Source of the DNA: Paractinoplanes polyasparticus
GTDB lineage: Bacteria; Actinomycetota; Actinomycetes; Mycobacteriales; Micromonosporaceae
Length of the DNA stretch: 64,000 nt
Assembly (NCBI RefSeq): GCF_019710575.1
Contig: NZ_JAHWFK010000033.1
Location: forward strand, 62,001 to 126,000
Direction of reading: 5' to 3'
Positions 16,682-37,934 of the stretch are shown in pieces (position 1 is the stretch's first letter; each line of letters begins with the position of its first letter). Both the position numbers and the translations under genes were made by a program. Under the pieces are notes generated by a model. The model ran no database searches. It worked only from the letters and a program-made list of their open reading frames with translations, and was not told where the DNA came from.

Positions 16682-17361
16682 GCGTCGGCCTCCGAGACGA
16701 TCAGGCCGTCGCGCATGACGATCTGGTGCTCGGCGCGGGCGGCCACCTCGCGGTCGTGGGTGACCAGCACGACGGCGACGCCCTCGGCGTTGAGCGATTC
16801 GAGCAGGGCGAGCACCGACTGGCCGGTGGCCGAGTCGAGATTGCCGGTGGGCTCGTCGGCCAGCAGCACCGACGGGCCGGTGACCAGGGCCCGGGCGATC
16901 GCCACGCGCTGCTGCTCGCCGCCGGACATCTGATTGGGGCGGTGGTCGACGCGGTGCGACAACCCGACGCGGCCGAGCATCTCGGTGGCCCGGGCCCGCC
17001 GCTCGCGCCGGCCGATGCCGCGGTAGACCAGCGGCAGGGCGACGTTGTCGCGGGCCGTGGTGCGGGCGAGCAGATGGAACGACTGGAAGACGAACCCGAT
17101 GGTCTCGTTGCGCAGCTTGGCCATCTCGCCCGGGGTGAGCCCGGAGACGTCCCGCCCACCGATCAGCAGGGTGCCGCCGGTGGGGCGGTCGAGGCCGCCG
17201 AGCAGGTGCATCAGCGTCGACTTGCCCGAGCCGGAGGTGCCGACGATGGCCAGGTAGTCGCCGGGCTCGATGGTCAGCGACACGCCCCGCAGCGCGGGCA
17301 CGGACACGCCGTCGAGGTCGTAGGTGCGGCTGACGCCGGTCGCGACGATGGCCGCCGTCAT
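16678..17361 (-). CDS. ABC transporter ATP-binding protein (MacB/LolD-like)
   Basis: A 227-residue ATPase with Walker A GTSGSGKST (about 36-44), Q-loop in VFQSFHLL, signature MSGGEQQRVAIARAL, Walker B VLLADEPTGNLDS and the switch His in VTHDREVA. The LAR(T)..N(V)ALPLVYRG segment is typical of the LolD/MacB subfamily. It energises the adjacent FtsX-fold permease. The start codon overlaps the adaptor's stop (ATGA, 17358-17361), so subunits are probably made in fixed proportion. Confidence 0.96.
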   Translation of the reverse strand: MTAAIVATGVSRTYDLDGVSVPALRGVSLTIEPGDYLAIVGTSGSGKSTLMHLLGGLDRPTGGTLLIGGRDVSGLTPGEMAKLRNETIGFVFQSFHLLARTTARDNVALPLVYRGIGRRERRARATEMLGRVGLSHRVDHRPNQMSGGEQQRVAIARALVTGPSVLLADEPTGNLDSATGQSVLALLESLNAEGVAVVLVTHDREVAARAEHQIVMRDGLIVSEADA

Positions 17362-18677
17362 GAGGGCCGGTCGCCCGGCTGGATCTCGTCGGCGCCCGAG
17401 ACCGCTATGCGCTGGCCGGCGTCGAGGCCGCCGGTGACCTGGACGATGTCCTCACCCTGCACGCCGAGGGTCACCGGCACCCGCTCGTAGCTGTCGCCGC
17501 GGACCGCCCACACCGTGTCGCGCCCGTCGACGTTGATGATGGCCGAGGCGGGCACGGTGACGGCGTCGTCGGCCTCGCGCACCTGCAGCCGGATCACCGC
17601 GCTCATGCCGGGCCGGGGCGAGGGCGCGTCCTCGCCGGGGGTGAGGTCGAGGCGAACCTTGTACGAAACCCCGCCGCGCGCCGACGTGGTCGGGAGCAGG
17701 TCGATGGAGCGCACGCTCGCCGCGTAGGCCGAACCGGTGGCCGCGTCGAGCTCGACGGTGGCCTTGACCCCGGGCTTGACCAGCAGCACGTCGGTCTCGT
17801 CGACCTCGGCCAGCAGCCCGAGGCGGCTCACGTCGACCACGGTGAACAGCGGGGTGCCGGCCGCGACGTAGGCGCCCCGGGGCACGGCCGTGTCGACCCC
17901 GGGCAGCCCACTGCCCCCACCGGCCGCGGCCGGAGCAGCGCCGCCGGATGACAGCAGGTCGCCCAGCGACGACGGACTCGCCCCGGCCGTGCCGCCGAAC
18001 TGCACGACCCCCGCCACCGGCGCCCGCAGGGTCAGCGCCTCGACGGCCGCGTCGGCCAGCTCGTAAGCCTGCTGGGCCTGCAGCCGTTGGGCCGCCGACA
18101 GCGAGCTGACCGCCTCGCCCAGCGACGCCACGCCCCGCTCGACCGAGCGCAGGGCCGCAGCCGCCGCGGACGAGGCCGCCGAGTATTGCTGGTTGGCCGC
18201 GTCGACCTGTTTGAGGAGCACCTCGCGCAGGGCCGGGTCGGCGATCCTGGCGGCGGCCGCCCGGGCCTGCTCGAAGGCGTCGGCCGCCTGCTTGTCGGTC
18301 TTGCGCCGTACAGAAGAGAAGCCGCTCGAGGAAGAGAAGCCGCCCCCACCGCGGGACGCCTCGTCGAGCGCCCGCTCGGCGGAGCGGCGCCGGGCCTCGA
18401 GCTCGGGAGCGTCGATGACCGCGAGGACCTGGCCCTTGCTGACCCGGCGGCCGGGCTCGACCCGCAGGTCGTCGAGGGTGCCGGCGGCGGGCGCGCTGAC
18501 CGTGGCCGCGGCCCGGGCGGTCACCGAGCCGGGCGCCTCGACGATCTCGGCCACCGTGCCGCGCGTGGCCTCGCCCAGGCGCACGTCGGTCGGCTCGTCA
18601 CCGCAGGAAGCGGCGGTCGACGAGACCAGCAGGACCCCGGCGACGGCAAGAACAAAAGGGCGGCGGTGTTCGGACAC
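17358..18677 (-). CDS. MacA/HlyD-like adaptor lipoprotein
   Basis: A 439-residue adaptor. The N-terminal hydrophobic segment ends in a lipobox-like SSTAASC (Cys about 25), so it is probably a lipid-anchored extracytoplasmic protein. A first half-lipoyl/barrel-sandwich motif (APAAGTLDDLRVEPGRRVSKGQVLAVID) precedes a long Ala-rich helical hairpin (about 75-205). The second lipoyl half (RAPVAGVVQ), a beta-barrel domain and a membrane-proximal domain follow. A Ser/Gly patch (GGGGFSSSSGFSS) interrupts the hairpin. GTG 18677 is chosen because a TAGAGT box ends 7 nt before it; GTG 18686 and 18707 are alternatives. It is the first gene of a four-gene coupled operon. Confidence 0.9.
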   Translation of the reverse strand: MSEHRRPFVLAVAGVLLVSSTAASCGDEPTDVRLGEATRGTVAEIVEAPGSVTARAAATVSAPAAGTLDDLRVEPGRRVSKGQVLAVIDAPELEARRRSAERALDEASRGGGGFSSSSGFSSVRRKTDKQAADAFEQARAAAARIADPALREVLLKQVDAANQQYSAASSAAAAALRSVERGVASLGEAVSSLSAAQRLQAQQAYELADAAVEALTLRAPVAGVVQFGGTAGASPSSLGDLLSSGGAAPAAAGGGSGLPGVDTAVPRGAYVAAGTPLFTVVDVSRLGLLAEVDETDVLLVKPGVKATVELDAATGSAYAASVRSIDLLPTTSARGGVSYKVRLDLTPGEDAPSPRPGMSAVIRLQVREADDAVTVPASAIINVDGRDTVWAVRGDSYERVPVTLGVQGEDIVQVTGGLDAGQRIAVSGADEIQPGDRPS

Positions 18678-18684
18678 GCACGCC

Positions 18685-18690
18685 ACTCTA
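18685..18690 (-). promoter_or_regulatory. Leaderless-type -10 box (TAGAGT) for the MacA-like operon
   Basis: TAGAGT on the minus strand ends 7 nt before GTG 18677 with no ribosome site. It also decides the start: an initiation codon at 18707 would lie upstream of this promoter. Confidence 0.45.
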
Positions 18691-18714
18691 TGTCGGCCCA
18701 CCGACAAGAAAGGA

Positions 18715-18764: not shown

Positions 18765-19493
18765 TCAGGTGCCGGGACGACGCCCGATCAGCTTGACCCG
18801 CATACCGATCTTGCCGACGTTCCAGTACGTGCGAGCGTCGCTCGGCAGAAGGTTCACGCAGCCGTGGGACCCGCGCCACTTGTCGTGGATGTAGGTCGTC
18901 GTCTGGTGGAAGCCCTTACCGCCCTGGAAGCGCTGCCAGTAGGGCAGCCACACCTCGTACGGGTCGGACCATTCCTTCTTCGTGCGCTTGTTGATCTTGT
19001 ATGTGCCGGCGGGCGTGCGGTAGTTCTTCATGCCCGTGCGGACCACGGTCGGAGCGGCGAACTGCTTGCCGTTCTTCATGATCCACGACGTCTGCTGCGT
19101 CAGGTTGACGCAGAACGTGTAGCCCGACTTCTTCGGCTTGCATGCCGCGACCTTGGTGGCCGCGAGGCGCTTGGCCACGTCCCACGTCGTCGGGCCGGCC
19201 AGACCAGCGGCGGGCTGAATGCCGTACCGCTTCTGGAACTTCTTGATGATCTTGCAGTCGGCGGCGGACTGCTTGCCGTCGACCTTGGTCTTGCCGAACA
19301 TGCCGATCTTGTTGATCAGCGTCTCGACCTGCTTCTGGTACTTGCCGGTCGAACAGCCCGCCGCGGCGGCTTTGGTCACCACTGTCGTAGCCACGGCGGC
19401 GCTCGCCCCGGCCGGTGACAGCGCCACCGCGCCGAGACCGCCGCCGACCATCGCCGCCAACGCGACTCCGGCCGCAACCCGTCTCGATCCCAC
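18765..19493 (-). CDS. Secreted L,D-transpeptidase (YkuD) with peptidoglycan-binding-like domain
   Basis: A 242-residue exported protein. GTG 19493 follows GGGGAGG with 7-nt spacing. It has a signal peptide of about 32 residues ending near AGASA, then a Cys-paired helical region (CSTGKYQKQVETLINKIG ... ADCKIIKKFQKRYGIQP) resembling a PG_binding_1 domain. The C-terminal YkuD domain has YIHDKWRGSHGCVNL; the catalytic Cys is about residue 212. It should form 3-3 cross-links in peptidoglycan or attach proteins to it. It sits after the CAP gene on the same strand but has its own ribosome site and terminator. Confidence 0.92.
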   Translation of the reverse strand: MGSRRVAAGVALAAMVGGGLGAVALSPAGASAAVATTVVTKAAAAGCSTGKYQKQVETLINKIGMFGKTKVDGKQSAADCKIIKKFQKRYGIQPAAGLAGPTTWDVAKRLAATKVAACKPKKSGYTFCVNLTQQTSWIMKNGKQFAAPTVVRTGMKNYRTPAGTYKINKRTKKEWSDPYEVWLPYWQRFQGGKGFHQTTTYIHDKWRGSHGCVNLLPSDARTYWNVGKIGMRVKLIGRRPGT

Positions 19494-19624
19494 TGTGGTT
19501 CCTCCCCAGAAACGTGTGCGCACATAGAAGCACAGCAGTGCCGCTCACGACTCCCCGGGAAGGAGCGTGGCGCGAAACCGGTAGGTCACATCGGTCCGCG
19601 CGCACGCCGCTTGAGAGAAGTTCG

Positions 19625-20554
19625 TCAGGATTCCGGGGTAGCGAAGTCCTGCACCCAGTACGGGGTGCGGTCGCGCGCGATGGCCAGGCCGACACCCATC
19701 TCGTGCAGCCGGCAGTCGAGGATGTTCTCGCGGTGGGTGGGGCTGTTCATCCAGCCGTTGACCACCTCGTACGCGCTGTCGGCGCCGCGGGCGATGTTCT
19801 CGCCGTAACGCTTCCACCTGTATCCCCGGTCGCTCACCCGGTCGCCCGCGCTGTCGCCGCTGGGCGACTCGTGTGCGAAGTAGTCGCGGCGAGCCATGTC
19901 GGCCGCGTGGTCGTTGGCCGCCTCGATCAGCCGCCGGTCCAGAGTGAATGGATCGCAGCCGCCGTGCCGCCGGTTCTGGTTGATCAGGCGGAGGACCCGC
20001 TGCTGCACGGGCGCGGCCGGGCTGGCTGAGACATCGGAAGCGGTGACGGCCTGGCGTGCGCCGGCCATCACGTCGGCGGCGGGCCGCTGCACCTGGCGCG
20101 GCTGTTCCCGCACGACCCTGGGCTGCTCGCGGTGCTGTTGCTTCGGCTGCGCCGCGAGGGCCTGATGCTTGGGCCGAGTGGGGGCCTGGGCGTCATCCCG
20201 TACGGAGTTCTGAGGCTGAGCCGGGGGCAGAGCGACCCGGTTCTGCTGCCGGCGCACGTGGTCGTCGCCCTGGACGGAGGAGCCGGGCCGGGAACGGGAG
20301 TCGTCGAGCGCCGGCCCCCGACCGGCGGACGGCTCGCCGTCGCCGGAGTCGCCGGAGTCATCGGAATCGCCGCCTGCCAAGTCGCCGCCGGAGAAGCCGC
20401 TCCCGTCGTCACCGCCCCCGAACAGGCTCGGCCACCAGAAGCTGCTCCAGCCCGGCGTTTCCGGCCTCTCGTCGGCGGCCGCCGAGGTCGCCACGAAGCC
20501 GCCCCCGAGCAGAAGCGCCGCCGCCGCACTGACCACCACGACTGGTTTCCGCAT
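19625..20554 (-). CDS. Secreted CAP-domain (SCP/PR1-like) protein
   Basis: A 309-residue protein starting MRKPVVVVSAAAALLLGGG, a signal peptide with likely cleavage near SAAA-DE. An Asp/Gly/Ser-rich low-complexity region (about 35-90) and a Gln/Arg/Pro-rich linker follow. The C-terminal CAP domain (about 185-309) shows LRLINQNRRHGGC, the active-cavity type HAADMARRDYFAHESPSG and RYGENIARG, and NGWMNSPTHRENIL. Bacterial CAP proteins are extracellular and their molecular role is largely unknown. GGGG lies 4-7 nt before the ATG. It is followed 131 nt later by the L,D-transpeptidase gene, suggesting a cell-wall context. Confidence 0.9.
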   Translation of the reverse strand: MRKPVVVVSAAAALLLGGGFVATSAAADERPETPGWSSFWWPSLFGGGDDGSGFSGGDLAGGDSDDSGDSGDGEPSAGRGPALDDSRSRPGSSVQGDDHVRRQQNRVALPPAQPQNSVRDDAQAPTRPKHQALAAQPKQQHREQPRVVREQPRQVQRPAADVMAGARQAVTASDVSASPAAPVQQRVLRLINQNRRHGGCDPFTLDRRLIEAANDHAADMARRDYFAHESPSGDSAGDRVSDRGYRWKRYGENIARGADSAYEVVNGWMNSPTHRENILDCRLHEMGVGLAIARDRTPYWVQDFATPES

Positions 20555-20857
20555 ACCCCGTAATCCCCATCCTCCAGGGCCACCCGGCCGCTCCGGGTCA
20601 CCTCCACCGGAGGTCAACGTCACAAACCGGGCACGGTCACTTGCGGTCCGCCCAGCCGTCACCGGGCAGGCACCGGCCGGTGTCGCTGCCACGGGGAGCG
20701 CCAGCAGGAGTTTTGCCGTTTCTCCGGGCAGCACGGACGTCGCACAAACGCACCGACAAACCGGACAGTTCATGCGTACGGGGTAAGCCTGCGGTGCTGT
20801 TGTTCCCGTCCGTGCGGAGGTCGCAGCGCCGGGCAGCGGACTGGCAACCTCGTCGCG
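20555..20857. other. Divergent intergenic region (303 bp) with a 12-bp palindrome
   Basis: It separates the CAP gene (minus) from the acyltransferase gene (plus). No gene is supported. CACCGGCCGGTG at 20671-20682 is a perfect palindrome and might be an operator. No clear -10 boxes close to either start were found. Confidence 0.4.
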
Positions 20858-22273
<1,416 letters not shown>

Positions 22274-22314
22274 GCGGTGTGAAGGAATCTCGGAAAAGCG
22301 GGATGAAGGCTCGC

Positions 22315-22320
22315 TAATCT
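22315..22320 (+). promoter_or_regulatory. Leaderless-type -10 box (TAATCT) for the chemosensory operon
   Basis: TAATCT ends 6 nt before ATG 22327, with no Shine-Dalgarno. It is the only promoter-like element before the seven-gene operon. CGGAAA lies 18 nt further upstream as a poor -35. Confidence 0.5.
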
Positions 22321-22326
22321 GAGCGA

Positions 22327-22827
22327 ATGCGGCAGTACGGACAAGCGCCCGCGCACGCCGACGAGAGCGCCGGCGCCGGAGTGGTTGCGCTCGTCTTCCG
22401 GGCCGGCCCGCTGCTGTGTGCGGTCCAACTGGACGAGGTCGTCGAGACCATGCGGCCGCTGGAGGCCCGCGCTCTGGCCGGCACCCCGCCCTTCGTGCGC
22501 GGCATCACCGTGCTGCGCGGCGTGCCCACCCCGGTCATCGACGTGTCGCGGCTGCTCGGGGGCGGGCCGGCCGACGCCGAGCGCTACCTGGCCGTCCGCA
22601 CCGAGCGCGGCACCATCGCGCTGGCGACCGGCGAGGTGCTCGGCATCCGGGTCGTCGAGGCCGAGGCCACCGGTGGCCACCCGGCGCTGCTCGGCGGCGG
22701 CAGCACCCGCATGGTCGCGGGCGTCGGCACCCTCGGCGCCGAGCCGCTCCTGCTGCTGCAGAGCCTGCGCGCGGTGCCCGACGAGGTCTGGGAAGCGGCA
22801 GCCGTGAACGCGGGTGAGCCCTCGTGA
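22327..22827 (+). CDS. cheW: CheW-like coupling protein 1
   Basis: A 166-residue single CheW domain. The N-terminal strand VVALVFRAGPLLCAVQLDEVVETMRP, then GTPPFVRGITVLRGVPTPVIDVSRLLG, is the classical CheW SH3-like pattern that docks CheA and receptors. It is the first gene of the operon; GTGA at 22824-22827 overlaps the start of cheR. The operon also encodes a second CheW-like protein, as in Wsp-type systems where WspB and WspD serve different partners. Confidence 0.92.
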   Translation: MRQYGQAPAHADESAGAGVVALVFRAGPLLCAVQLDEVVETMRPLEARALAGTPPFVRGITVLRGVPTPVIDVSRLLGGGPADAERYLAVRTERGTIALATGEVLGIRVVEAEATGGHPALLGGGSTRMVAGVGTLGAEPLLLLQSLRAVPDEVWEAAAVNAGEPS

Positions 22828-24236
22828 GCGACTCGGCGCACGTCGCCCGCTTCCGCGAGCTGCTGGCCCGGCTGCTGGGCTGGACCTTCGCCGACAACGA
22901 CGCCCCGCCGCTGGCCGGCCTGCTGCGGGACCGGGCCGACGACCACGGGATGAGCGTCGGCGCCTACCTGGCCCGGCTGGCCTCGCGACCCTGGGAGGCC
23001 GAGCTGTCGGTGCTCGTCGAGCGGCTCAGCATCACCGAGACCTACTTCTTCCGGCACGGCGAGCAGTTCACGGCGCTGCGCGAGGACGCCCTGCCCGAGC
23101 GGGCCGACGCCCGCTCGTCGCAGCGGATCCTGCGGATGCTCTCGGTGGCCTGCTCGTCCGGCGAGGAGGCGTACTCGCTGGCCATCAGCGGGCGGCAGGT
23201 GCGGTCCGACCCCGACTGGATCATCGACGTGACCGGCATCGACGCCAACCCGGCGGTGCTGCGCAAGGCGGACGCGGCCTGGTACTCCGCGTGGTCGCTG
23301 CGGGAGACGCCGGACGCTGTGCGCCGGCGCTGGTTCTGTCCCGACGACGGCGGTTTCCGGGTGGTCGACGAGATCCGCCGCCTGGTGCGTTTCCGGCGGG
23401 TGAACGTGGCCGAGTCCGGCGACGGCGTCTGGAACCACGGCCAGTACGACGTCATCTTCTGCCGCAACCTGCTGATGTACCTGACCCCGGCGGTGACCTC
23501 GGCGCTGGTCGAGCGGATGACCAACGCGCTCGCGCCCGGTGGCTATCTGTTCCTCGGGCACACCGACTCGCTCGGCCGCGACCCGGCCGGGCTGGAACTG
23601 CGGCACACCCACAGGACGTTCTACTACCGCCGCGCGGGTGGCCCGCCCCCGGCCCAGCGGATTTCGTCGCTGCCGGCCCCGGGCGAGTCGTCCGCCGTAG
23701 CCCCGGAACCGGGAACGCCCGCGCCGCGGATGGACGACGACATCTACGAGCGCAGCCTCGACCTGCTGCGGCAGGAGCGTTTCAGCGCCGCGCTGGAGCT
23801 GATCGCCGTGCCCCGGACCGGCATGCCGGGGGCCCGCGACCAGCTGCTGCACGGCGTTCTGCTCGCCCAGTCGGGCCGGCTGAGCGAGGCGATCGAGCTG
23901 GCCCGCCGGCTGAGCGAGGAGAACGGCCTCAACGCGGACGCGCACCAGCTGCTCGGGCTCTGCCTGGAGGACGGCTCAGCGGTGGCTGAGGCCATCGGGC
24001 AGTACCGCCTGGCCGCGTACCTGGACCCGGGGTTCGCCCTGCCCCGGATGCGGCTGGGGCAGCTCGCGCGGCGGCAGGGCGACGACCGCGTCGCGGCCGG
24101 TGAGCTGGAGCGCGCGCTGGAGCTGCTGGCGCGGGAGGACGACGAGCGCATCACCCTGTTCGGCGGGGGTTTCGGCCGCCTCGCGCTGACCGTGGTGTGC
24201 CGCTCCGAACTCGACGCGTGCGCGGTGCGCCCGTGA
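22824..24236 (+). CDS. cheR: CheR methyltransferase with C-terminal TPR region (WspC-like)
   Basis: A 470-residue protein. The N-terminal helical CheR domain has the TETYFFR motif. The SAM-binding methyltransferase domain has LSVACSSGEEAYSL, VTGIDAN, VIFCRNLLMYL and FLGHTDSLG. A Pro-rich linker (about 270-305) follows, and the last 160 residues form tandem TPR-like helices (HGVLLAQSGRLSEAIELARRL, HQLLGLCLEDGSAVAEAIGQYRLAAYLDPG). It methylates receptor glutamates. The TPR tail is characteristic of CheR proteins in alternative-function (Wsp-like) systems. It starts inside the cheW stop (GTGA) and its own stop overlaps the second cheW. Confidence 0.95.
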   Translation: MSDSAHVARFRELLARLLGWTFADNDAPPLAGLLRDRADDHGMSVGAYLARLASRPWEAELSVLVERLSITETYFFRHGEQFTALREDALPERADARSSQRILRMLSVACSSGEEAYSLAISGRQVRSDPDWIIDVTGIDANPAVLRKADAAWYSAWSLRETPDAVRRRWFCPDDGGFRVVDEIRRLVRFRRVNVAESGDGVWNHGQYDVIFCRNLLMYLTPAVTSALVERMTNALAPGGYLFLGHTDSLGRDPAGLELRHTHRTFYYRRAGGPPPAQRISSLPAPGESSAVAPEPGTPAPRMDDDIYERSLDLLRQERFSAALELIAVPRTGMPGARDQLLHGVLLAQSGRLSEAIELARRLSEENGLNADAHQLLGLCLEDGSAVAEAIGQYRLAAYLDPGFALPRMRLGQLARRQGDDRVAAGELERALELLAREDDERITLFGGGFGRLALTVVCRSELDACAVRP

Positions 24237-24802
24237 CCGCCCGCTCCGGCTCGGTCTCCCGGCGCGTCGACCAGCTGCGCGACGACTTCGACCGGTCCTT
24301 CGCCGAGCCGGCCCGCAGCCATGACGAGGAGCATCTGGAGCTCCTGACCGTCCGGGCCGGCGGGCGCCCGTACGCGATCAAGCTCTCGCAGAGTTCCGGC
24401 GTGCACCCCGACCGCCCGGTGACGCCCCTGCCCGGGCCCCTGCCCGCGCTGCTCGGCCTGGCCGGATTCGCCGGGGCGGTGGTGCCCGTCTACGACCTCG
24501 CCGCGCTGCTCGACCATCCGGTTGCCGAGGTGCCGCGCTGGCTGGTCCTGGCGGCCGGCACGCCGCCGCTCGGGCTGGCCTTCCACGAGTTGGACGGGCA
24601 TGTGCGGGCCGCCGTCTCGGACATCATCCGCGAGACGGGTCAGGACGGCGAGGACGGCGGCCGCGGCCGCGGCGGCACCCTGCGCGGGCTCGTCGACCTG
24701 CCCGGCGGCAGCCGCCCGATCATCGACATCCCGGCCGCGCGGGCCCTGGTGCACGCGCTGGCCGGACACGCGCAAGCCACCGACGAGGAGAACGCACCAT
24801 GA
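24233..24802 (+). CDS. CheW-like coupling protein 2 (WspD-like position)
   Basis: A 189-residue protein, with GTG 24233 chosen because it forms the same GTGA overlap as its neighbour. An N-terminal helix ([19 protein letters not shown]) precedes a CheW domain with [45 protein letters not shown] and a [12 protein letters not shown] end. An Asp/Gly-rich loop ([13 protein letters not shown]) interrupts the domain. N-terminal helices before the CheW fold also occur in WspD. ATGA at 24799-24802 overlaps the receptor gene. Confidence 0.9.
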
Positions 24803-26271
24803 TGGCCGAACGCACCTTCGGCACGAAGCTCGCCGCCGGCTTCGGGCTGACCCTGGCGCTCACGCTGCTGATGACGGCGACCTCGGTGCTGACCCTGCGC
24901 TACGTGATGAACAGCAAGGACAACGTGATCACGTCGGCGCGGGTGAACCTGGTCGGCTCCGAGGAGCTCAACGGCCACATGGAGTCGCGGATCGCCGACT
25001 ACCGCGCCTACCTGCTCGTCGGCACCGACGAGTATCTGCGAGCCGCCGAGCAGGATCGGGCGAACTTTCTCGCCGAGGCCGGCCGGCTCCGCGAGTCGAT
25101 GACCGACGCGACGTCGCAGGAGCTTCTCGATGCGGTCACCGCGGCCGAGGAGAAACACGCCGCCGTTCTGACGCCGATCATGGAACAGCGCTCGCGGCTG
25201 AACGATCTGCGCAACGTCACCCAGCTCGCCGGCAATCAGGAGCTCAAGGCGGCCCGGATCGCGGTGCAGCAGGCGCTCGCCGCGCTCATCGAGCGGCAGT
25301 CGATCGTGGTGGACACCCGCCGGGACGAGTCGTCGAGCCGTGCCACCATGGCGAGCGCGTTCATCATCGTGATCGGCGCCGTGCTCATCCTCGGGGCCGC
25401 CGCGGTGGCCTGGAAGCTGAGCCGTGACCTGCGCCGGGAGGTGGGGGCCGCGGTCGGCCACATCCAGAGCTCCTCGGCCCAGCTCGAGGCGGCCGCCGCG
25501 CAACAGGCCTCCGGGGGCCGGGACCAGGCCAGCGCGATGAACGAGATCACCACGACGATCAGCGAGCTGCTGATCACCTCGCGGCAGATCGCGGACAGCG
25601 CCCAGCGGGTCTCGAAGATCGCTGAGGAGACGGCGGAGGCCGCCCGCACCGGCGACGCCACCGTGGAGCAGACCCGGACGTCGATCGCCGCCATCCGCAC
25701 CCAGGTCGACCAGATCGTGCAGCACATGCTCGCGCTGGGCGAGAAGTCGCAGCAGATCGGCGGGGTCGCCGACCTGGTGTCCGAGCTTGCCGAGCAGACC
25801 AACATCCTGGCCATCAACGCGACCATCGAGGCCAGCGGCGCCGGCGAGTGGGGCCGGCGGTTCGCGGTGGTCGCCGAGGAGATCCGCAAGCTGGCCGACC
25901 GGACGGCCGGGTCGGCCAAGGAGATCCGGGCGCTCATCGAGGACGTCCGCGGGGCGGTGAACACGACCGTGATGGCCACCGAGATCGGCGCCAAAGCGGT
26001 CGACTCCGGGTCGCGGCAGTTCGACGACGCCACCAGCTCGTTCCGGCGGATCGCCGGGCTGGTGTCGACCACCAGCGACGCCACCCGCGAGATCGAGCTC
26101 TCCACCAAGCAGCAGACCACCGCCGTCGAGCAGGTCAACATCGCGGCCTCGGACACCGCCCGGGTCACCCGCGAGACCGAGGCCAGCGCCGTGCAGACCA
26201 AGCAGACCGCGGCCCACCTCAGCACGCTCTCCAGCGAGCTGCTGGACCTGGTCGGCACCGGGCGACACTGA
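24799..26271 (+). CDS. Methyl-accepting chemotaxis protein without recognisable HAMP domain
   Basis: A 490-residue receptor. TM1 is about residues 11-34, the extracytoplasmic helical sensor about 35-183 (CHASE3/4HB-like, [19 protein letters not shown]), and TM2 about 186-207. The signalling coiled coil begins almost at once ([27 protein letters not shown]), leaving no room for a HAMP domain of about 50 residues. The hairpin tip is well kept: [39 protein letters not shown]. Methylation-type Gln/Glu/Ala heptads flank it. The immediately repeated ATGATG gives two possible starts, 24799 and 24802. It is the only receptor gene in the operon. Confidence 0.94.
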
Positions 26272-26296
26272 CATGGGGGCCGAGCTTGCGATGTCA
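26269..26296 (+). promoter_or_regulatory. Inverted repeat in the receptor-cheA gap
   Basis: TGACAT (26269-26274) and ATGTCA (26291-26296) flank 16 nt. This 93-nt gap is the only non-overlapping junction in the operon, and cheA has no clear ribosome site. The element may control cheA translation or mark an internal promoter. Confidence 0.35.
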
Positions 26297-26364
26297 TGCC
26301 CTCCTGGCCCTCGTCTGCGAGGCCGTCGGAGGCGCACGCTGTGTGCCACTCGGTGCAGTCGGTC

Positions 26365-28494
26365 ATGACGCGGGATCCGCTGCGCTACTTCCGGATCGAG
26401 GCCAAGGAGCTGGTCGACCAGATCAGCGCGGGCGTGCTCGACCTGGACCAGCAGCCCGAGGCCGACGTGGTGGCCCGGCTGCTGCGGTTCGCGCACACCC
26501 TCAAGGGCGCGGCCCGGGTCGTCAGGCAGCAGGAGATCGCGGACCGGGCCCACGAGTTCGAGGAGGTGCTGGTCCCGCACCGGGACGAGAGCACCCCGGC
26601 GCTCCCGGCCGACCAGATGCGCGAGCTGCTGCGCCTGAACGACGAGATCTCCGGATTTGTGACGGCCCTGTCGGCGCCCGCGCCACCGGTGGCCGAGCCG
26701 GCGCCCGCCGAACCGGAGGAGCCGATCCGCACGGTTCCCCTGAACGCGCCCACCACGCAGGCCGAGGTCGATCAGGCCCACGTCGACGCCGAGCTGGCCC
26801 GGGGGGCCGACGCGGCCTCGGACCGGCCCGAGCGGGCCGCCACGGCCGACCTCGACGACCTGCTCGACGCCATCGGCGAGGCCAGCTCCCGCATCGCCCC
26901 GCTGCGCGACGGCGGCCGGACGCTGAACCGCCTGCACCGCAACGTCGAGACGCTGGGTGAGCGCATGCGGGTCGGGCGCACCACCGTCTCGGACGCCTCC
27001 GCCCGCACCTCCGTGCGGCGGCTCGCGGGCGAGCTGGGCGCGCTCGGCCGCCGGCTCACCGACGCCGTGGACCAGGTCGAACGCGAGCTCGACGAGGTGC
27101 GCGGGCGGGCCGAGGGGCTGCGCCTGGTGCCGGCCGGATCGATCTTCACGGCGCTGCGCCGGGCCGTGCGGGACGCGGCCGAGGCCGAGGGCAAGCCGGT
27201 CCGGTTCCAGGCCAGCGGGGCCGACGTCCGGATGGGCCCCCACCTGCTCAACCTGATCAGCGGCGCCTACCTGCACGTCGTGCGCAACGCGGTCGTGCAC
27301 GGCATCGAGCCCGAGAAGCAGCGCATCGCCGCCGGCAAGCCCGTCGAGGGTACGGTCGCCGTGCACGTCGAGCGGCGCGGCCGGTACGCCGAGTTCCGCT
27401 GCGCCGACGACGGCCGCGGCTTCGACCTGGCCGCCCTGCGCCGCACCGCCGAGGAGCGCGGCCTGCTCGCCCCCGGCCTGGATCCGGGCCCGCAGGGGCT
27501 GATCGACCTGGTGCTGCACGGCGGGATCAGCACCGCGCCCGGTGTCACCGAGGTGGCCGGCCGCGGCATCGGCATGGACGTCGTCCGGGACGTGGCCCTG
27601 CAACTGGGCGGCGAGGTGTCCATCGCCAACCGGCCGGGCCAGGGCGCCACCGTACGCCTGATCGTGCCCCTGACCCTGCTGAGCATGAACGGGCTGATCG
27701 TCGAGGCCGCCGGCACCACCACCACGATGCCGCTGGACGCGGTGCGCCGGTGTGTGCGCCTGGGCCCCGACGAGGTGGCCACCGCGACCGCGACCGCCCG
27801 GCTCGCCCACGAGCGCGAGGTGCTGCCGTTCCTGCCGCTGGCTCAGGCGCTGCGCGTGCCGGCCGGCGAGGAGCCCCGCTCCGGGGTCGCGGTGGTGCTG
27901 ACCGCCGACCGCGACACCGTGGCGATCGGCGTCGACCGGCTGGCCGGCATCTCCACGCTGGTCGCCCGCCCGCTGCCGGATCTGGCTCCGGCCGCCCCGG
28001 TGATCGGCAGCGTCTCGATCGACCTGGACGGCAATCCCCGGCTCGTGCTGGACGCGCACGGGCTGGTGGCCGAGGCCCGGCAGGAGAGCACCACCGCGCG
28101 CGGCGACGCCGCGGCGGCGGCCCGGCCCAGGATGCCGATCCTGGTCGTCGACGACTCGCTGACCACCCGCATGCTCGAGCGCAGCATCCTCGAGTCGGCC
28201 GGCTACGAGGTCGACCTGGCCGCCTCGGGCGAGGAGGGCCTGGAACGGGCCCGCAGCCGCCGGTACGGCCTCTATCTGACCGACATCGACATGCCCGGCA
28301 TCGACGGCTTCACGTTCGTCGCCCGGACCCGGGCCGACCCGCAGCTGGCCCACGTGCCGGCGATCCTGGTGAGTTCGCGGGCCAGCGCCGAGGACAGGCG
28401 CCGAGGCGCCGAGGCGGGCGCCTCGGCGTACGTGGTCAAGGGCGAGTTCAACCAGGAGGAGCTGCTCACGCACATCCGGAGGCTGATCCTCTGA
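26365..28494 (+). CDS. cheA: Hybrid chemotaxis histidine kinase CheA with C-terminal receiver (WspE-like)
   Basis: A 709-residue kinase starting MTRDPLRYFRIEAKELVDQ. The HPt domain has the phospho-accepting His at about 44 (FAHTLKGAARVV). An acidic/Pro-rich linker, a dimerisation helix pair, an ATPase domain (N-box HVVRNAVVHGIE, G1 DDGRGFD, G2 GRGIGMDVV) and a CheW-like regulatory domain follow. The receiver domain at about 589-709 has VVDDS, Asp about 640 (LTDIDMPG) and Lys in YVVKG. A CheY-binding P2 domain is not evident, which fits phosphotransfer through its own receiver. ATG 26296 is an alternative start but adds an atypical N-terminus. TGATG at the end couples it to cheB. Confidence 0.95.
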   Translation: MTRDPLRYFRIEAKELVDQISAGVLDLDQQPEADVVARLLRFAHTLKGAARVVRQQEIADRAHEFEEVLVPHRDESTPALPADQMRELLRLNDEISGFVTALSAPAPPVAEPAPAEPEEPIRTVPLNAPTTQAEVDQAHVDAELARGADAASDRPERAATADLDDLLDAIGEASSRIAPLRDGGRTLNRLHRNVETLGERMRVGRTTVSDASARTSVRRLAGELGALGRRLTDAVDQVERELDEVRGRAEGLRLVPAGSIFTALRRAVRDAAEAEGKPVRFQASGADVRMGPHLLNLISGAYLHVVRNAVVHGIEPEKQRIAAGKPVEGTVAVHVERRGRYAEFRCADDGRGFDLAALRRTAEERGLLAPGLDPGPQGLIDLVLHGGISTAPGVTEVAGRGIGMDVVRDVALQLGGEVSIANRPGQGATVRLIVPLTLLSMNGLIVEAAGTTTTMPLDAVRRCVRLGPDEVATATATARLAHEREVLPFLPLAQALRVPAGEEPRSGVAVVLTADRDTVAIGVDRLAGISTLVARPLPDLAPAAPVIGSVSIDLDGNPRLVLDAHGLVAEARQESTTARGDAAAAARPRMPILVVDDSLTTRMLERSILESAGYEVDLAASGEEGLERARSRRYGLYLTDIDMPGIDGFTFVARTRADPQLAHVPAILVSSRASAEDRRRGAEAGASAYVVKGEFNQEELLTHIRRLIL

Positions 28495-29561
28495 TGATCC
28501 GTGTCCTGCTCGTCGAGGATTCCGCCACCATGCGCAACCACCTGCGCGAGTCGCTCGCCGCCGACCCCGAGCTGCAGGTGGTGGGTGAGGCCACCGACGG
28601 GGGCGACGCGGTCGCGATGGTCGCGCGCCTGCGGCCCGACGTGGTGACCATGGACATGATGCTGCCGACGATGAGCGGCCTGGTCGCCACCGAGCACATC
28701 ATGGCCGAGCACCCGACGCCGATCCTGGTCGTCTCGTCGGCCGACCGCAAGGAGCTGTTCAGCACGTACAACGCGCTGGCCGCGGGGGCGGTCGACGTGC
28801 TCGAGAAGCCGCGCGGCGACGCCACGGACGCCGACTGGGGGCGGCGGCTGTGCGCGGCCGTCCGCCTCGTCTCGCGCATCCGGGTGATCACCCACCCCCG
28901 GGCCCGGCTGGACGGTCGCGGCCGCCCGGCCGCCGAGCCGCCGGTCACTCCGCCGGTGGCCACGCCGGTGTCCGACGCCCTGCGCGTGGTCGCCCTGGGC
29001 GCCTCGACCGGCGGCCCGGGCGCGCTGACCGAGCTGCTGCGCGCGCTGCCGGCCGGCTTCCCGCCGCCGGTGCTCTGTGTGCAGCACATCGCGGCCAGCG
29101 AGCCGTTCGCCGTCGCGTTCTCGGACTGGCTGGCCGGGCAGACCGGGCGCGACGTCAGCTACGCCCGGGACCGCACGCCGGTGGCCGCGCTGACCGGCCG
29201 GGTGGTGCTCGCCCCGCCCGACCGGCACCTGCTGGTGCGCGACGGGATGCTCCGGGTCACCGACGGCCCGCCCCGGCACTCCTGCCGCCCCTCGGTCGAC
29301 GTGCTCTTCGAGTCGGTGGCCGCCGAGTACGGCGCGACCGCGGCCGGCTGCCTGCTCACCGGCATGGGCCGGGACGGCGCCGAGGGACTGCTGACCATGC
29401 GGGCCCGGGGCGCGGTCACCTTCGCCCAGGACGAGGCGAGCTGCGTCGTGTACGGGATGCCCCGCGAGGCCGCCCTGCTCGGCGCGGCCGCCTACGTGTT
29501 GTCGCCGGCCCGGATGGCGGCCCGGATCGTCGAGCTCCAGCCCGCGGGGAGCCGGCGATGA
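28494..29561 (+). CDS. cheB: Chemotaxis protein-glutamate methylesterase CheB (WspF-like)
   Basis: A 355-residue response-regulator methylesterase. The receiver has VEDSATMRN and the phospho-Asp in VTMDMMLPTMSG (about residue 56), followed by a linker and the esterase domain with the Ser-His-Asp triad in GASTGGPGAL, VQHIAAS and LTGMGRDGAEG. It removes receptor methyl groups and counteracts CheR. The ATG shares one base with the cheA stop (TGATG), and its own stop overlaps the next gene (ATGA). No stand-alone CheY gene follows. Confidence 0.96.
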   Translation: MIRVLLVEDSATMRNHLRESLAADPELQVVGEATDGGDAVAMVARLRPDVVTMDMMLPTMSGLVATEHIMAEHPTPILVVSSADRKELFSTYNALAAGAVDVLEKPRGDATDADWGRRLCAAVRLVSRIRVITHPRARLDGRGRPAAEPPVTPPVATPVSDALRVVALGASTGGPGALTELLRALPAGFPPPVLCVQHIAASEPFAVAFSDWLAGQTGRDVSYARDRTPVAALTGRVVLAPPDRHLLVRDGMLRVTDGPPRHSCRPSVDVLFESVAAEYGATAAGCLLTGMGRDGAEGLLTMRARGAVTFAQDEASCVVYGMPREAALLGAAAYVLSPARMAARIVELQPAGSRR

Positions 29562-31549
29562 TCCACCGCGTGCTGATCGTGGACGACAGCCTCACCGTCC
29601 GGATGGACCTGCACGAGACCTTCGAGGCGGACGGCTTCCGCACGATCCTGTGCGCCACCGGGAGCGAGGCGCGGGCGGCCTTCGTCGGCGACGACTTCGA
29701 CGTGGCCGTGCTCGACGTGCTGCTGCCCGACGCCGACGGGCTGGAGCTGCTCACCGAGCTGCGCGGCATGCCGAGCCGGGCCCAGGTGGTGACCGTGCTG
29801 CTGAGCAGCGAGGACGAGGTCGCCGACCGGCTCGCGGGGCTACGCACCGGCGCCGACGAGTACGTCGGAAAACCGTACGATGCAGGATACGTCGTGGCCC
29901 GCGTGCGCCAGCTGCTGCGCGAGGGTGCAGCCCGCGCCGACGACCGCACCACCGTGCTCATCGTGGACGACAGCATGACCTTCCGCGAGCAGCTGCGGGA
30001 GCTGCTCGAAAGCGAAGGCTACGCCGTGCTGACCGCCCCCAGCGGCGAGGACGGCCTGCGCGTGGCGGCCGACCGGCGGCCGCAGGCGGTGATCGTCGAC
30101 GGCGTGATGCCCGGCATCGACGGCGCCACCGTGATCCGCCGCATCCGGCTCGACCCGGCGCTGCGCGACATCCCGTGCATCCTGATGACCGCGGCCGACG
30201 ACTACGCCACCGAGCTGCAGATGCTCGACGCCGGCGCCGACGCGTTCGTGCGCAAGCAGCAGAACCTGGCGATCGTGCCGGCCAAGTTGAACGCCGTGCT
30301 GCGGCAGAGCTCCGAGCAGCTGCCGATCGACCTGACCGGCAGCCTGCACGGGCCGAGCAAGGTGCTGGCGCTGACCCCGGACCGGCAGCGGCTGGCCGGC
30401 CTGGCCGCGGCGCTGCGTGACGAGGGCTACGACGTGATCCCGGTGGCCGCCACCGACGACGCGCTCGACCTGCTCGCCGCCCAGCCGGTCGACTGCATCG
30501 TGCTGGGTCTCGGCCTCTCGGGCGATCTGGGCCGGGAGGCGTGCCGGCGGATCAAGGAAGTGCCGGTGATCGGCGAGACCCCGATCGTGATGACCGGGAC
30601 CACCGACGACGACATGCTGGCCTGCCTGGAGGCGGGGGCGGACGATTACGTACGGGCGGATTCCGGCCCCGAGGCGCTGCGCGCCCATGTGCGTACGCAG
30701 ATCCGGCGCAAGCAGTCGCACGACGAGAGCCGCCGCATCCGCGAGGAGCTGATGCGCCGCGAGCTGGACGCCGCCGAGGAACGGTCGGCCCGGCAGCTGG
30801 CGGAGACCCGGGCCGCCCTCGTCGAGGAGCTGGAGTGGCGCAACCGCGAGCTGGAGGCGTTCTCGGGCTCGGTCTCGCACGACCTGCGGGGCCCGCTCCA
30901 GGTGATCAGCAGCTTCGCCGAGCACATGCTGGACGACGAGGACGACCCGCTCAGCACCGAGATGCGGCGCCGGCTGAGCCGCATCCAGGCCGCCGCCCAC
31001 CGGATGGCCGACCTGGTCGAGTCGCTGCTGATCCTGGCCCGGGCCAGCCGCGGCGACCTGCGCCGGTCCGAGTTCGACCTGACCGCCACGACGTGGCAGG
31101 TGATCGGCGAGGTCGAGGCGCGCGACCCGGACCACAAGGTCGCCTTCACCGTTCGCGACGGCATGGGCGCGGACGCCGACGAGGGACTGGTCCGGGTGAT
31201 CCTGGAGAACCTGATCAACAACGCCGTGAAGTTCACCCGCAAGGTCGAGCGCCCCGCGATCGAGGTGGGCGAGACAGCCGAGGGGTTCTTCGTGCGCGAC
31301 AACGGCGCGGGCTTCCCCGCGGGCAAGGCCGGCGAGCTGTTCCGGCCGTTCGCCCGCCTGCACAGCGCCAAGGACTTCCCCGGCACCGGCATCGGCCTGA
31401 CCACGGTGCACCGGGCGGTCGAGCGCCACGGCGGCGAGATCTGGGCCGAGGGCGAGGACGGGCGCGGCGCGACCTTCTGGTTCACACTGCCCCCGGCCCC
31501 GGACCCCGGCGGACCGGACCGGCGGGCTCAGGCCCGCCGGACCGGCTGA
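29558..31549 (+). CDS. Triple-receiver hybrid histidine kinase, putative output of the chemosensory operon
   Basis: A 663-residue soluble protein with REC1 (about 1-122, Asp53), REC2 (131-250, Asp181) and REC3 (266-383). A coiled coil (390-430), HisKA (His441 in SGSVSHDLRGPLQV) and HATPase (LENLINNAVKF, DNGAGF, GTGIGLTTV) follow. In REC3 the phospho-acceptor position reads VLGLGL instead of VLDxxL (Gly317) and the usual Lys is replaced (YVRAD), so it is a pseudo-receiver. It occupies the place WspR holds in Wsp operons. CheA or its receiver could phosphorylate REC1/REC2 and gate the kinase, whose downstream regulator is not encoded here. ATGA overlap with cheB. Confidence 0.93.
   Translation: MIHRVLIVDDSLTVRMDLHETFEADGFRTILCATGSEARAAFVGDDFDVAVLDVLLPDADGLELLTELRGMPSRAQVVTVLLSSEDEVADRLAGLRTGADEYVGKPYDAGYVVARVRQLLREGAARADDRTTVLIVDDSMTFREQLRELLESEGYAVLTAPSGEDGLRVAADRRPQAVIVDGVMPGIDGATVIRRIRLDPALRDIPCILMTAADDYATELQMLDAGADAFVRKQQNLAIVPAKLNAVLRQSSEQLPIDLTGSLHGPSKVLALTPDRQRLAGLAAALRDEGYDVIPVAATDDALDLLAAQPVDCIVLGLGLSGDLGREACRRIKEVPVIGETPIVMTGTTDDDMLACLEAGADDYVRADSGPEALRAHVRTQIRRKQSHDESRRIREELMRRELDAAEERSARQLAETRAALVEELEWRNRELEAFSGSVSHDLRGPLQVISSFAEHMLDDEDDPLSTEMRRRLSRIQAAAHRMADLVESLLILARASRGDLRRSEFDLTATTWQVIGEVEARDPDHKVAFTVRDGMGADADEGLVRVILENLINNAVKFTRKVERPAIEVGETAEGFFVRDNGAGFPAGKAGELFRPFARLHSAKDFPGTGIGLTTVHRAVERHGGEIWAEGEDGRGATFWFTLPPAPDPGGPDRRAQARRTG
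31519..31540. terminator. Hairpin at the convergent end of the chemosensory operon
   Basis: CCGGCGGGC-tcag-GCCCGCCGG is a 9-bp perfect stem with a tetraloop inside the last codons of the hybrid kinase. The amidase gene ends one base after the kinase stop on the other strand. It could act on both transcripts. Confidence 0.5.
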
Positions 31550-33784
31550 CTACTTGACGTACGTGAGGCCGTCCGAGATGACGGTCGGGCGGCCCTTGGT
31601 GCCCACGACCACGACCGAGACGGTGTGGGCGCCCGCGGTCAGCGCTTTGACCCAGATCGTCTGCCGGTGCGTGGTCTTCGCCGCCCTGGTGTCCACGGTG
31701 GTCACCTTGACGCCGTCGACGTAGATGGCGGCCTGGCCCGTCGCCGTCGTGCGGGTGAAGGTCAGCGCGGCCGAGCGCCCGTTGAACACGTACGCCAATT
31801 TGGCGTTCTTGGCCGACGCGGCGAGCGCCTTGCCCCCCAGGTAGGTGGTGGCGGCCGAGCGCGTGCTCCAGGTGCCGGTGCGCTTGGCCGACGTCTCGGG
31901 CATCTGGACGATCGTCCGGGTGACGGTCGAGACGCCCTCGTTGTAGGCCATGTCGGAGGCCTGCACGGTGTACTTCACGGCCACGTTCGGCTTGACCGTC
32001 GCGTTCCACACCGTGGACGTGCCGAGCATCGGGACCTCGTTCGGCGACAGGGCGAACTGACGGGCGATCCGGCCGTTGTTGTCGGCCGACTTGAAGTTCA
32101 CCGCGACCGGCACCGAGGTGGCGGAGTACGTCCCGGTCTTCAGGGCCACCCACGGCGGGGTCGGGAAGGTCGGCTTGGTCACGTCACCGATGACCTTGGT
32201 GACCGGCGTGATGTCGGTCGCGCCGGTCACGTGCACCACGCGGACCGCCACGTTGTGCGGGCCCGGGGTGACGGTGATCTTCGCGCTGCCCGCGGTGTTG
32301 TTGCCCGGGCCGGTCGCCACGACCTTGCTGTCGACCAGCACCTCGAAGCGGCTGACGTCGGCCGCCTGGCCGCCGACCCGGTAGTAGACGGTCCCGTCCT
32401 CCCGCACGTAGAAAGGCGGGGTGGTCGGCTCGCCGCCGCTGACCGAGACGATCTGGAGGCCCGGCAGCGCGGCCCGGCCGCGGATCTGGCCCAGCAACGG
32501 ATAGAACAGGTCACCCGGGCACTCCGTCTCGGCGCCGTCCCGGTGACCGGCGATGCGCGGGAAGGGCACCACGGTGCCCTTCGGCCACTTCATGCCGTCG
32601 ATGCCCGCGACCAGCGTCGTGGTGCCGGTCGGGTCGTTGCCGTACGCGCCGATGCGGGCCGCCGCCAGTTCGGCGATCGAAGTGAGGGCCGCGTTGCTCG
32701 GCCGCACGGTGGTGTAGTCGCCGATCAGCGCGATGCCGGCCGTGGCGGTGTTGAAGCCGGCCACGTGCGCGCCGACCACAGCCTTGCCGACGCCACCGGC
32801 CCGGCCCTCGTAGATTGTGCCGCAGTTGTCGACGAGGAAGTTGTAGCCGATGTCGTCGAAGCCCTCGGAGATGTCGGTCGCCATGATCGCGCGGACGAAG
32901 TCCGGGGCGTCGGCGCACGTCTTCGGGAACTCGGTGCCGGTGTGGTGCACCCAGACCAGCTTCACGCCCTCTCCAGCGATCGTCGGCGGGGCCTTGACCA
33001 GGCTCTCGTTCGCCTTCCAGCCGGCTCGGGACACATAGGCCGGCATCCCCGGATTCGGCACCGGCGGGGGCACCGACGTGGGCGGCGGAGTCGGTGTCGT
33101 GGCCTTCGGGGCGGGCGGAGTCGCCGTCGTCGCGGGCGGCTTGGTGGCCGTCGTCGCGCCCGGGACGGGGCTCGCGGGCGGCGGCGCCTTGGGCACGGTG
33201 GGCGTCGGCACCGGCTCGCCGCCCCCGCGGCCGCCGGACTCGGGGGCGTTGGGGTCGATCAGCTTGAGCAGGAGCCCGGCCGGCAGCGGCTTGGTGGCGG
33301 CGCCGACGAGCCGGGCGGCCACGCCGTCGGACGGGCCGGTCCAGAGCGGCGCGGTGCGGCCGCGCGCCTTGGCCCGTTCGCCCGCCAGGTCGGCCGCGTC
33401 CTCGGCGACCGACAGGTTCTTCCAGCCGGTCCACTGACCCGTGCCGGCGTTGCGGGTGCGCACCTGGACGGTGCCGTCGGGCGCGTCCTTCGGGCTGTTC
33501 CAGCTGACGCTGATCATGCTGAAGTTCTCGGTCGGCCGCTGCGGCAGCGAGAACTTGCGGCCCAGGTTGCCGAGGTCGACCTGGTCGATCCGGATGCCGG
33601 ACGGCTTGGCGGCGGCCGCAGCCGCCTTGACCGGCGCCGCCGGCGGCTCGGCCTCGGCGTGCGCCTCGTCACCGGAGACGAACCGCGCCACCGCGTCGCC
33701 GGAGCCGGTGAGGACGGCGACGCCGCCACCCGCCGCGAGCACCGCCGCCGCGGTTCCGATGCCTATTGCCAGTCGACGCCTCAC
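31550..33784 (-). CDS. Secreted PGRP-family N-acetylmuramoyl-L-alanine amidase
   Basis: A 744-residue exported enzyme. An N-terminal signal/anchor (about 5-26) is followed by a beta domain with VSWNSPKDAPDGTVQVRTRN. A Pro/Thr-rich linker (about 190-245) and the PGRP zinc amidase domain (about 248-430) come next. Zinc ligands are visible as His280 (VWVHHTG), His414 (IAGHRDG) and Cys422 (ECPGD), with a Tyr in YNFLV. The C-terminal 300 residues look like Ig-like and cell-wall or glycan-binding beta domains. It should cleave the muramoyl-alanine bond of peptidoglycan. The GTG start has GGGGG about 6 nt upstream. It converges on the chemosensory operon with one base between stops. Confidence 0.92.
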   Translation of the reverse strand: MRRRLAIGIGTAAAVLAAGGGVAVLTGSGDAVARFVSGDEAHAEAEPPAAPVKAAAAAAKPSGIRIDQVDLGNLGRKFSLPQRPTENFSMISVSWNSPKDAPDGTVQVRTRNAGTGQWTGWKNLSVAEDAADLAGERAKARGRTAPLWTGPSDGVAARLVGAATKPLPAGLLLKLIDPNAPESGGRGGGEPVPTPTVPKAPPPASPVPGATTATKPPATTATPPAPKATTPTPPPTSVPPPVPNPGMPAYVSRAGWKANESLVKAPPTIAGEGVKLVWVHHTGTEFPKTCADAPDFVRAIMATDISEGFDDIGYNFLVDNCGTIYEGRAGGVGKAVVGAHVAGFNTATAGIALIGDYTTVRPSNAALTSIAELAAARIGAYGNDPTGTTTLVAGIDGMKWPKGTVVPFPRIAGHRDGAETECPGDLFYPLLGQIRGRAALPGLQIVSVSGGEPTTPPFYVREDGTVYYRVGGQAADVSRFEVLVDSKVVATGPGNNTAGSAKITVTPGPHNVAVRVVHVTGATDITPVTKVIGDVTKPTFPTPPWVALKTGTYSATSVPVAVNFKSADNNGRIARQFALSPNEVPMLGTSTVWNATVKPNVAVKYTVQASDMAYNEGVSTVTRTIVQMPETSAKRTGTWSTRSAATTYLGGKALAASAKNAKLAYVFNGRSAALTFTRTTATGQAAIYVDGVKVTTVDTRAAKTTHRQTIWVKALTAGAHTVSVVVVGTKGRPTVISDGLTYVK

Positions 33785-37784: not shown

Positions 37785-37912
37785 GATTTCTCCGCTCAAT
37801 GACGTTCTCGACGCGGCACATCATGTGGGGAGCCGATCGGCCGGCACATCAGCCGCGAGCCAGGCCCCCGATCCGGGGCGGATCTGTCTTTCGGCCGATG
37901 GGAGCCCCCGTA

Positions 37913-37928: not shown

Positions 37929-37934
37929 ACGACG

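Follow-up and report, generated by a model that had tools for sequence, protein, structure and literature searches.

A chemosensory operon of Paractinoplanes polyasparticus with a soluble kinase output, nested in the flagellated genomes of its family sample

What does a bacterium control with a chemotaxis-type operon whose last gene encodes neither a CheY nor a diguanylate cyclase, but another histidine kinase? This question is raised by a locus in a stretch of 64,000 nucleotides from Paractinoplanes polyasparticus (contig NZ_JAHWFK010000033.1, positions 62,001 to 126,000; referred to here as the window), where seven open reading frames on the + strand at 22327-31549 encode CheW, CheR-TPR, CheW, a methyl-accepting chemotaxis protein (MCP), CheA-REC, CheB and a kinase which we call K. 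Our best explanation, which as a whole we consider quite probable, is that this is the che3 operon of the Actinoplanes lineage, i.e. a chemosensory pathway of the alternative cellular function (ACF) type with a soluble, receiver-gated kinase as its output and with a role in the zoospore life cycle. All seven reading frames lie in the order and at the positions given by an earlier note on this DNA, and Pfam backs each of their domains, the TPR weakly:

22327..22827, + strand: cheW, first coupling protein (Pfam CheW 61.2 bits); it is the leading gene in 19 of the 20 loci from the same genus.
22824..24236, + strand: cheR-TPR methyltransferase (Pfam CheR 152 bits; TPR_16 at residues 342-403 under the cut-off, 28.5 versus 32.7 bits).
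24233..24802, + strand: cheW, second coupling protein (Pfam CheW 44 bits).
24799..26271, + strand: MCP chemoreceptor (Pfam MCPsignal 128 bits, no other domain).
26296..28494, + strand: cheA-REC hybrid kinase with Hpt, P3-P4-P5 and REC (Pfam Hpt-HATPase-CheW-REC); likely start 26365 (Met24).
28491..29561, + strand: cheB methylesterase with receiver (Pfam REC and CheB_methylest, 186 bits).
29558..31549, + strand: output kinase K, REC-REC-pseudoREC-HisKA-HATPase (Pfam; AlphaFold2 model).

With W, R, M, A and B standing for the cheW, cheR, MCP, cheA and cheB genes, the junctions W1/R, R/W2, W2/M, A/B and B/K, i.e. five of six, are four-base overlaps, and the seven genes therefore look like one translation-coupled operon. 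Coupling throughout, as first proposed, holds at these five junctions but not at MCP/cheA, the sole non-overlap, where 24 bases separate the MCP stop from the listed start of cheA. An alternative start at Met24 (26365), 93 bases past that stop, is likelier, because alignments of orthologues to CheA mostly open at residue 18-26. The MCP has two hydrophobic stretches by hydropathy and a sensor region with neither a HAMP nor any other Pfam match, and its arms of 20.0 and 20.3 heptads, obtained as a hairpin count from the estimated tip with no class model, fit a 40H receptor. Among the seven operon genes Pfam finds no CheY-like single-receiver gene, in keeping with the earlier description of a hybrid CheA without a separate CheY.

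The output kinase is itself of composite build. Its residues and those of CheA and CheB were checked across 31 operons, i.e. that of the window, those of 20 same-genus loci and those of 10 family loci outside the genus, and K shows the following features:

29714..29716, + strand: codon of the REC1 phospho-acceptor, Asp53 of K; Asp in 31 of 31 operons.
30098..30100, + strand: codon of the REC2 phospho-acceptor, Asp181 of K; Asp in 31 of 31 operons.
30506..30508, + strand: degenerate position of REC3, Gly317 of K in place of Asp; Gly in 23, Asp in 5, Ala in 2 and Ser in 1 of the 31.
30668..30934, + strand: long helix from REC3 to the kinase core, K residues 371-459 (AlphaFold2 secondary structure), holding His441, which is present in 31 of 31.

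REC3 of K lacks both the phospho-Asp and the acidic pocket, and K is thus predicted to combine two competent receivers (REC1 and REC2) with one pseudo-receiver (REC3). The name triple-receiver kinase given to it earlier is right in that Pfam finds three REC stretches followed by HisKA-HATPase, but not in that the third of these is degenerate. The N-box and G1 residues checked in K are invariant in all 31 operons, as are Asn331, Asp371 and REC Asp663 of CheA and Asp55 and the catalytic Ser172, His199 and Asp295 of CheB; receivers with a full active site number four in the pathway (CheA-REC, CheB-REC, and REC1 and REC2 of K). The P1 histidine of CheA, His67, is found in 29 of the 31, the exceptions being one locus (L034) that has no Hpt by Pfam and one (L074) in which its loss is a trimming artefact, Hpt being found there by profile. 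AlphaFold2, run on a 14-row alignment in which REC1 is covered by no other row, models K as three receiver folds (pLDDT 82.4) with a single helix, residues 371-459, that leads from REC3 to His441 and the helix around it; the pTM of 0.49 leaves the domain arrangement uncertain.

K is a constant component of the operon. In a 250-genome sample of the family, with both proteins called at E <= 1e-70, K and CheA occur in the identical 74 genomes (74 of 250 each), i.e. in 57 of the 61 genomes of the window's genus and in 17 genomes of five other genera, and in 74 of 74 they are adjacent on one contig, with gaps of 1037-2292 bases. The kinase gene, placed in the operon by the earlier note, is therefore anything but absent from most orthologous operons. 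The gene-neighbourhood survey that it had proposed returned all seven genes in this order in 19 of the 20 loci from the same genus, in all 10 loci taken from the family's other genera (covering 10 of the 17 such genomes with the operon) and in both of two further loci, those of A. missouriensis and of genome G226; for the remaining operon-bearing genomes of the family, CheA-K adjacency alone was scored. K is full-length in 20 of 23 same-genus relatives, and no full-length K is among the matches listed for 16 other relatives searched. Across 394 genomes sampled from the class, the top long CheA matches from beyond the family share 32-39% identity, and the 29 such loci that were fetched represent another type of operon. 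A sample of the phylum (296 genomes) contains no full-length K outside the operon's own genome; 30 of the 295 other genomes match K at E <= 1e-45, with residue 337 as the earliest match start, i.e. in the kinase core, to which the matches in four plasmid records are likewise confined. Domain architectures at relatives' loci were read with profiles built from the window's own family, and Pfam was run on 21 related-locus proteins.

Some loci in these samples are built differently. In one same-genus genome (L034, G006:C12:415497-433467) both cheW genes, cheR and the MCP gene are missing from the locus, and a Ser/Thr kinase domain (PF00069, 147 bits) shares one reading frame, as a fusion, with the HATPase-CheW-REC part of CheA (L034:8157-10922), followed by CheB and K; this fusion, seen in one genome, is either decay or a new input. 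An Hpt reported there by the family-built profile was discarded as false, L034 being part of that profile's own alignment and Pfam giving no Hpt. Loci from other families of the class (L053-L055, L057-L072 and L083-L091) read CheW-MCP(-MCP)-CheA-REC followed by a REC protein, which is REC-GAF in 9 of the 9 cases run through Pfam; CheR and CheB were not found in the stretches fetched, some of which are short, and these loci perhaps form a compact ACF-like system without adaptation enzymes. One further actinobacterial locus (L056, G334:C62:96000-110956) carries MCP, CheW, CheA-REC, CheB and CheR together with REC-GGDEF, a Wsp-like output.

To which chemosensory class does the operon belong? The ACF class has been recorded for six species of actinobacteria, including three of Actinoplanes, and the 40H chemoreceptor is the type named for it (PMC10746217); CheR-TPR has been described as typical of ACF clusters and almost absent from Gram-positives, with a multidomain response regulator as the ACF output (PMC3447774). 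Of such features, the operon has a K that fuses REC to HisKA-HATPase and a CheR fused to TPR, the latter by a weak TPR_16 match. Profiles were compared using 10 ACF versus 10 flagellar (F) class sequences in 12 draws, with F rows that were all actinobacterial. The window proteins score better on average with ACF profiles (ACF-minus-F mean +23.9 bits for CheA, with -3.3 in the lowest draw, +42.0 for CheB and +25.5 for CheR), and mean scores favour ACF for each of the three proteins in 12 of 12 family members, with margins below those of held-out ACF sequences. The latter average +135 (CheA), +68 (CheB) and +113 (CheR) and are positive in 100, 100 and 97% of 348, whereas held-out F sequences average -169, -85 and -120, respectively, with 1 of 12 positive for CheB. 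By its list of parts the operon is of ACF type, as the earlier note had it. In a combined CheA+CheB+CheR tree (64 rows, including 33 of 80 related loci and 12 family loci) the family sits on its own stem and the F-class rows form a separate clade (support 96).

Within this class, the Wsp system of Pseudomonas offers itself for comparison. It has the same parts list, i.e. MCP, two CheW, CheR-TPR, CheA-REC, CheB and an output regulator at the end, but its genes run M-W-R-W-A-B and end in a REC-GGDEF output (WspR), as they do in 17 of the 17 loci with that order, mostly from Pseudomonas, whereas the window runs W-R-W-M-A-B-K and its last gene is a kinase without a GGDEF match in Pfam. The parts list shared with Wsp, which the earlier note had pointed out, is thus real. 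It had also regarded a kinase instead of a cyclase as exceptional, and this does not stand. We collected 80 related loci by one profile scan of genome contigs, for which an alphaproteobacterial CheA headed the alignment; being picked by similarity, with further candidates existing, they are a sample and not a census. In these, the next gene with a recognized domain after cheB encodes a kinase module in 31 cases, GGDEF in 30 and other receivers in 13 (6 are cut or unclear), so that a kinase output is as common as GGDEF and is ruled out as an anomaly; similarly, about 40% of response regulators in cheR-TPR clusters have been reported to carry HisKA-HATPase (PMC3447774). By gene order, W-R-W-M-A-B occurs in 29 of the 80, followed by a kinase in 18, GGDEF in 5 and a receiver only in 6; M-W-R-W-A-B accounts for the 17 loci with GGDEF, and 34 show other or partial orders.

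A similar layout is that of alphaproteobacterial W-R-W-M-A-B-kinase operons (Methylobacterium, Microvirga, Pseudoroseomonas and Acidisoma), which share the gene order and carry a REC-REC-kinase gene right after cheB, the second REC being degenerate in several. On a Methylobacterium bullatum plasmid this kinase has, by Pfam, two REC domains, a HisKA at the cut-off and a HATPase; its counterpart on a Pseudoroseomonas cervicalis plasmid, assigned REC-REC-kinase by family-built profiles, is 59.9% identical to it and follows a cheB that is unannotated and read in two frames. CheA of the window is 34% identical to that of P. cervicalis. Alignment places REC3 of K with the second, often degenerate, receiver of the alphaproteobacterial kinases, so that K differs by one extra receiver at its N-terminus, and those operons differ also in often continuing with another receiver or kinase gene. 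The operon of the window thus adds one N-terminal receiver to an already known kinase-output ACF design.

How could signals pass through such a system? A true phosphorelay, as implied in the earlier note, would have phosphate run from CheA to a K receiver, on to His441 of K and from there to a regulator, and the presence of receivers and HisKA on one chain (Pfam) is compatible with it. Back-transfer from a receiver to HisKA without an Hpt domain is not usual chemistry, though, and Pfam finds no Hpt in K. Moreover, in the CheA3-CheS3 pathway of Rhodospirillum centenum, the precedent for a kinase output that has been worked out, CheA3 controls CheS3, and with it the development of cysts, by phosphorylating REC1 of CheS3, but the CheS3 kinase does not phosphorylate its own REC1; the phosphorylated receiver acts by control, and receiver and kinase exchange no phosphate (PMC3868531). 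A relay through the receivers into the kinase is therefore very improbable. In the same report, phosphate on REC1 is proposed to turn the CheS3 kinase down, CheY3 is phosphorylated by CheS3~P only, and the second REC of CheS3 has Ala for Asp (PMC3868531). By that published description, one operon or cluster in each species holds CheA-REC, two CheW, CheR, CheB, MCP and a soluble kinase with N-terminal receivers, the last of them degenerate; CheS3, however, consists of two RECs, a PAS and an HWE kinase, and its cluster includes the gene for CheY3, whereas K has three RECs (two of them competent), no PAS and HisKA/HATPase, with no CheY in the operon.

Because of the analogy with CheA3-CheS3, we envisage that K is gated by CheA via REC1 and/or REC2. 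MCP and the two CheW proteins would control CheA, and CheA~P would have as phosphate acceptors its own REC as a sink, CheB, which serves adaptation together with CheR-TPR, and K at its REC1 and/or REC2. Phosphorylation of these receivers would alter the autokinase activity of K via the pseudo-receiver REC3 and the continuous helix, and K would in turn phosphorylate a response regulator encoded away from the operon. Every phosphotransfer step, as well as the sign of control, the target and the biological role, is inferred.

With respect to that role, a relative has already been described. The window operon is the orthologue of che 3 of A. missouriensis (AMIS_52400 onward), in which the seven genes are identical in type and order. 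The A. missouriensis operon is directly preceded by a gene for a 450-residue AT3 acyltransferase (Pfam 3-324), just as atsA has been placed directly upstream of che 3 (PMC11064477). In the window, by contrast, the upstream neighbour is a divergent CAP-domain gene and not atsA. The text on che 3 names MCP and CheAY, with no mention there of a kinase, and includes the authors' unpublished remark that che 3 is seemingly unrelated to zoospore chemotaxis (PMC11064477). In the Actinoplanes literature on chemotaxis, che genes, TcrA and zoospores, mostly non-subscription, we found no description of the K gene and no test of che 3 beyond that remark.

The distribution of the operon points to zoospores all the same. 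FlhA, called by PF00771, is present in 86 of the 250 family genomes, and the operon in 74 of these 86 and in 0 of the 164 without FlhA; by genus, it occurs in 6 of 10 flagellated and 0 of 34 non-flagellated ones (Fisher p 3e-5, overstated since genera are taken as independent). This nesting inside the flagellated genomes of the family sample is new here, and we met no earlier report of it in the literature just cited. An obvious way to account for it would be a further flagellar chemotaxis system, in which CheA~P reaches a CheY made elsewhere, K is a side branch and the pathway steers zoospores. The restriction to FlhA genomes would suit this, and so would the F-class sisterhood that tree tests leave standing (see below). 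The genome, however, has three other chemosensory clusters, one of them on the FlhA contig about 15 kb away, the parts of the operon (CheR-TPR, CheA-REC, no CheY) are of ACF type, its profile scores favour that class, and che 3 of A. missouriensis, according to those who described it, shows no apparent connection with zoospore chemotaxis (unpublished; PMC11064477). We therefore regard steering as unlikely. A role other than flagellar steering, as suggested earlier, is plausible in the light of that same remark, and because the operon is nested in flagellated genomes and yet reportedly lacks a chemotaxis role, our best guess is that its output most likely serves the zoospore life cycle, i.e. 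sporangium, dormancy, release, motility programme or germination, rather than swimming direction. In a bolder version, which we put forward as a tentative possibility, che3 would be a lineage-wide life-cycle switch of zoospore-forming actinomycetes, with a chemoreceptor array gating a kinase of two active receivers and one pseudo-receiver; this switch would be kept only along with flagellated spores without steering them, and would decide when spores form, are released, swim or settle, as a counterpart of cyst control in R. centenum.

Several observations weigh against the che3 explanation or parts of it. In a CheA tree (104 rows; 17 of the 80 related loci, including 14 from Pseudomonas, and some family and class loci were left out), the family sits on a long stem beside the REC-GGDEF system L056 (support 83), both fall in the half that holds the genome's own F-class CheAs and Wsp, and the family stands apart from the alphaproteobacterial kinase-output clade; if anything, this tree would speak against a special tie to that clade. 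Approximately unbiased (AU) tests leave a sisterhood of the family and the F class unrejected (p 0.34, 0.51), as they do one with the alphaproteobacterial kinase operons (p 0.57) or with Wsp (p 0.64). A clustering of CheA and CheR with the F class, named in the earlier note as the outcome that would speak against an ACF origin, is thus not what the combined tree with its separate F clade displays, but neither do these tests reject it. The K model, as said above, leaves the domain arrangement uncertain. Twelve flagellated genomes, four of them in the window's genus, are without the operon, and nesting, counted without a species tree, may reflect shared ancestry. No linked output regulator was found in the operon, and no TcrA box, defined as in PMC12691653 and allowing <=2 mismatches, lies directly upstream of cheW in the window or at the A. 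missouriensis locus, on which ground TcrA control of the operon was rejected; overall, TcrA-box matches number 7 in the window versus 11.6 expected and 6 at the A. missouriensis locus versus 3.3 expected (25 of 200 shuffles reach 6).

If the target of K lies elsewhere, one named candidate is AsfR, a stand-alone receiver needed for spore release in A. missouriensis, which K could drive as CheS3 drives CheY3. AsfR requires Asp72, and its kinase was not found among 33 orphan kinases tested, a set that left out 17 receiver-bearing ones to which K may belong (PMC11960193). We identified AsfR in A. missouriensis as a 138-residue receiver with D27, D28, D72, S100 and K122 at about the expected place. 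At E <= 1e-25 it is present in 71 of the 250 family genomes, 64 of which are among the 74 that bear the operon; it was not found in the other 10, however, and is found in 7 without the operon, including all 4 same-genus genomes lacking it, and its occurrence follows flagella (70 of its 71 genomes) about as closely as it follows che3. Since its occurrence does not follow the operon, AsfR was set aside as the target of K and remains a weak rival, which we hold to be highly unlikely. An AsfR paralogue, 47% identical, sits beyond the window, at a distance of about 50 kb from the operon (G000:C56:144156-144560), with a similar one at about that distance in several close relatives, and may be a loosely linked candidate target of K.

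Should the life-cycle role prove true, a chemotaxis-type receptor array would head a developmental decision in sporangium-forming actinomycetes, in which few of the components that act early in spore release are known (PMC11960193); if it is false, the operon simply extends the list of ACF operons with a kinase output. Given its nesting and the reported lack of a chemotaxis role, the life-cycle reading can be tested directly in A. missouriensis, a species with established genetics.

The upstream region of the operon, compared by eye and without statistics with those of 31 other operons, contains a short box:

22267..22326, + strand: upstream region; a TAATCT box stands 6 bases ahead of the start codon (in relatives it reads TAGCCT or the like).

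In 10 of 31 relatives, a palindrome resembling GCGAGC-GAA-GCTCGC, of which the window has a degenerate form (by eye), precedes a TAGCCT-like box that ends about 6 bases before the start codon of cheW; palindrome and box might be a candidate operator and a near-leaderless promoter. The CAP-domain neighbour upstream (19625-22201) is divergent, and an amidase gene downstream (31550-33784) is convergent. An open reading frame at 37799-39760, which shares the strand of K and lies about 6 kb downstream of it, encodes REC and LuxR-type DNA-binding domains behind 440 residues that have no Pfam match and may lie outside the gene. On the - strand, an ABC ATPase (16678-17361) and an HlyD-type membrane-fusion protein (17358-18707) are flanked by an EamA-domain reading frame (14592-16664) and an L,D-transpeptidase (18765-19523).

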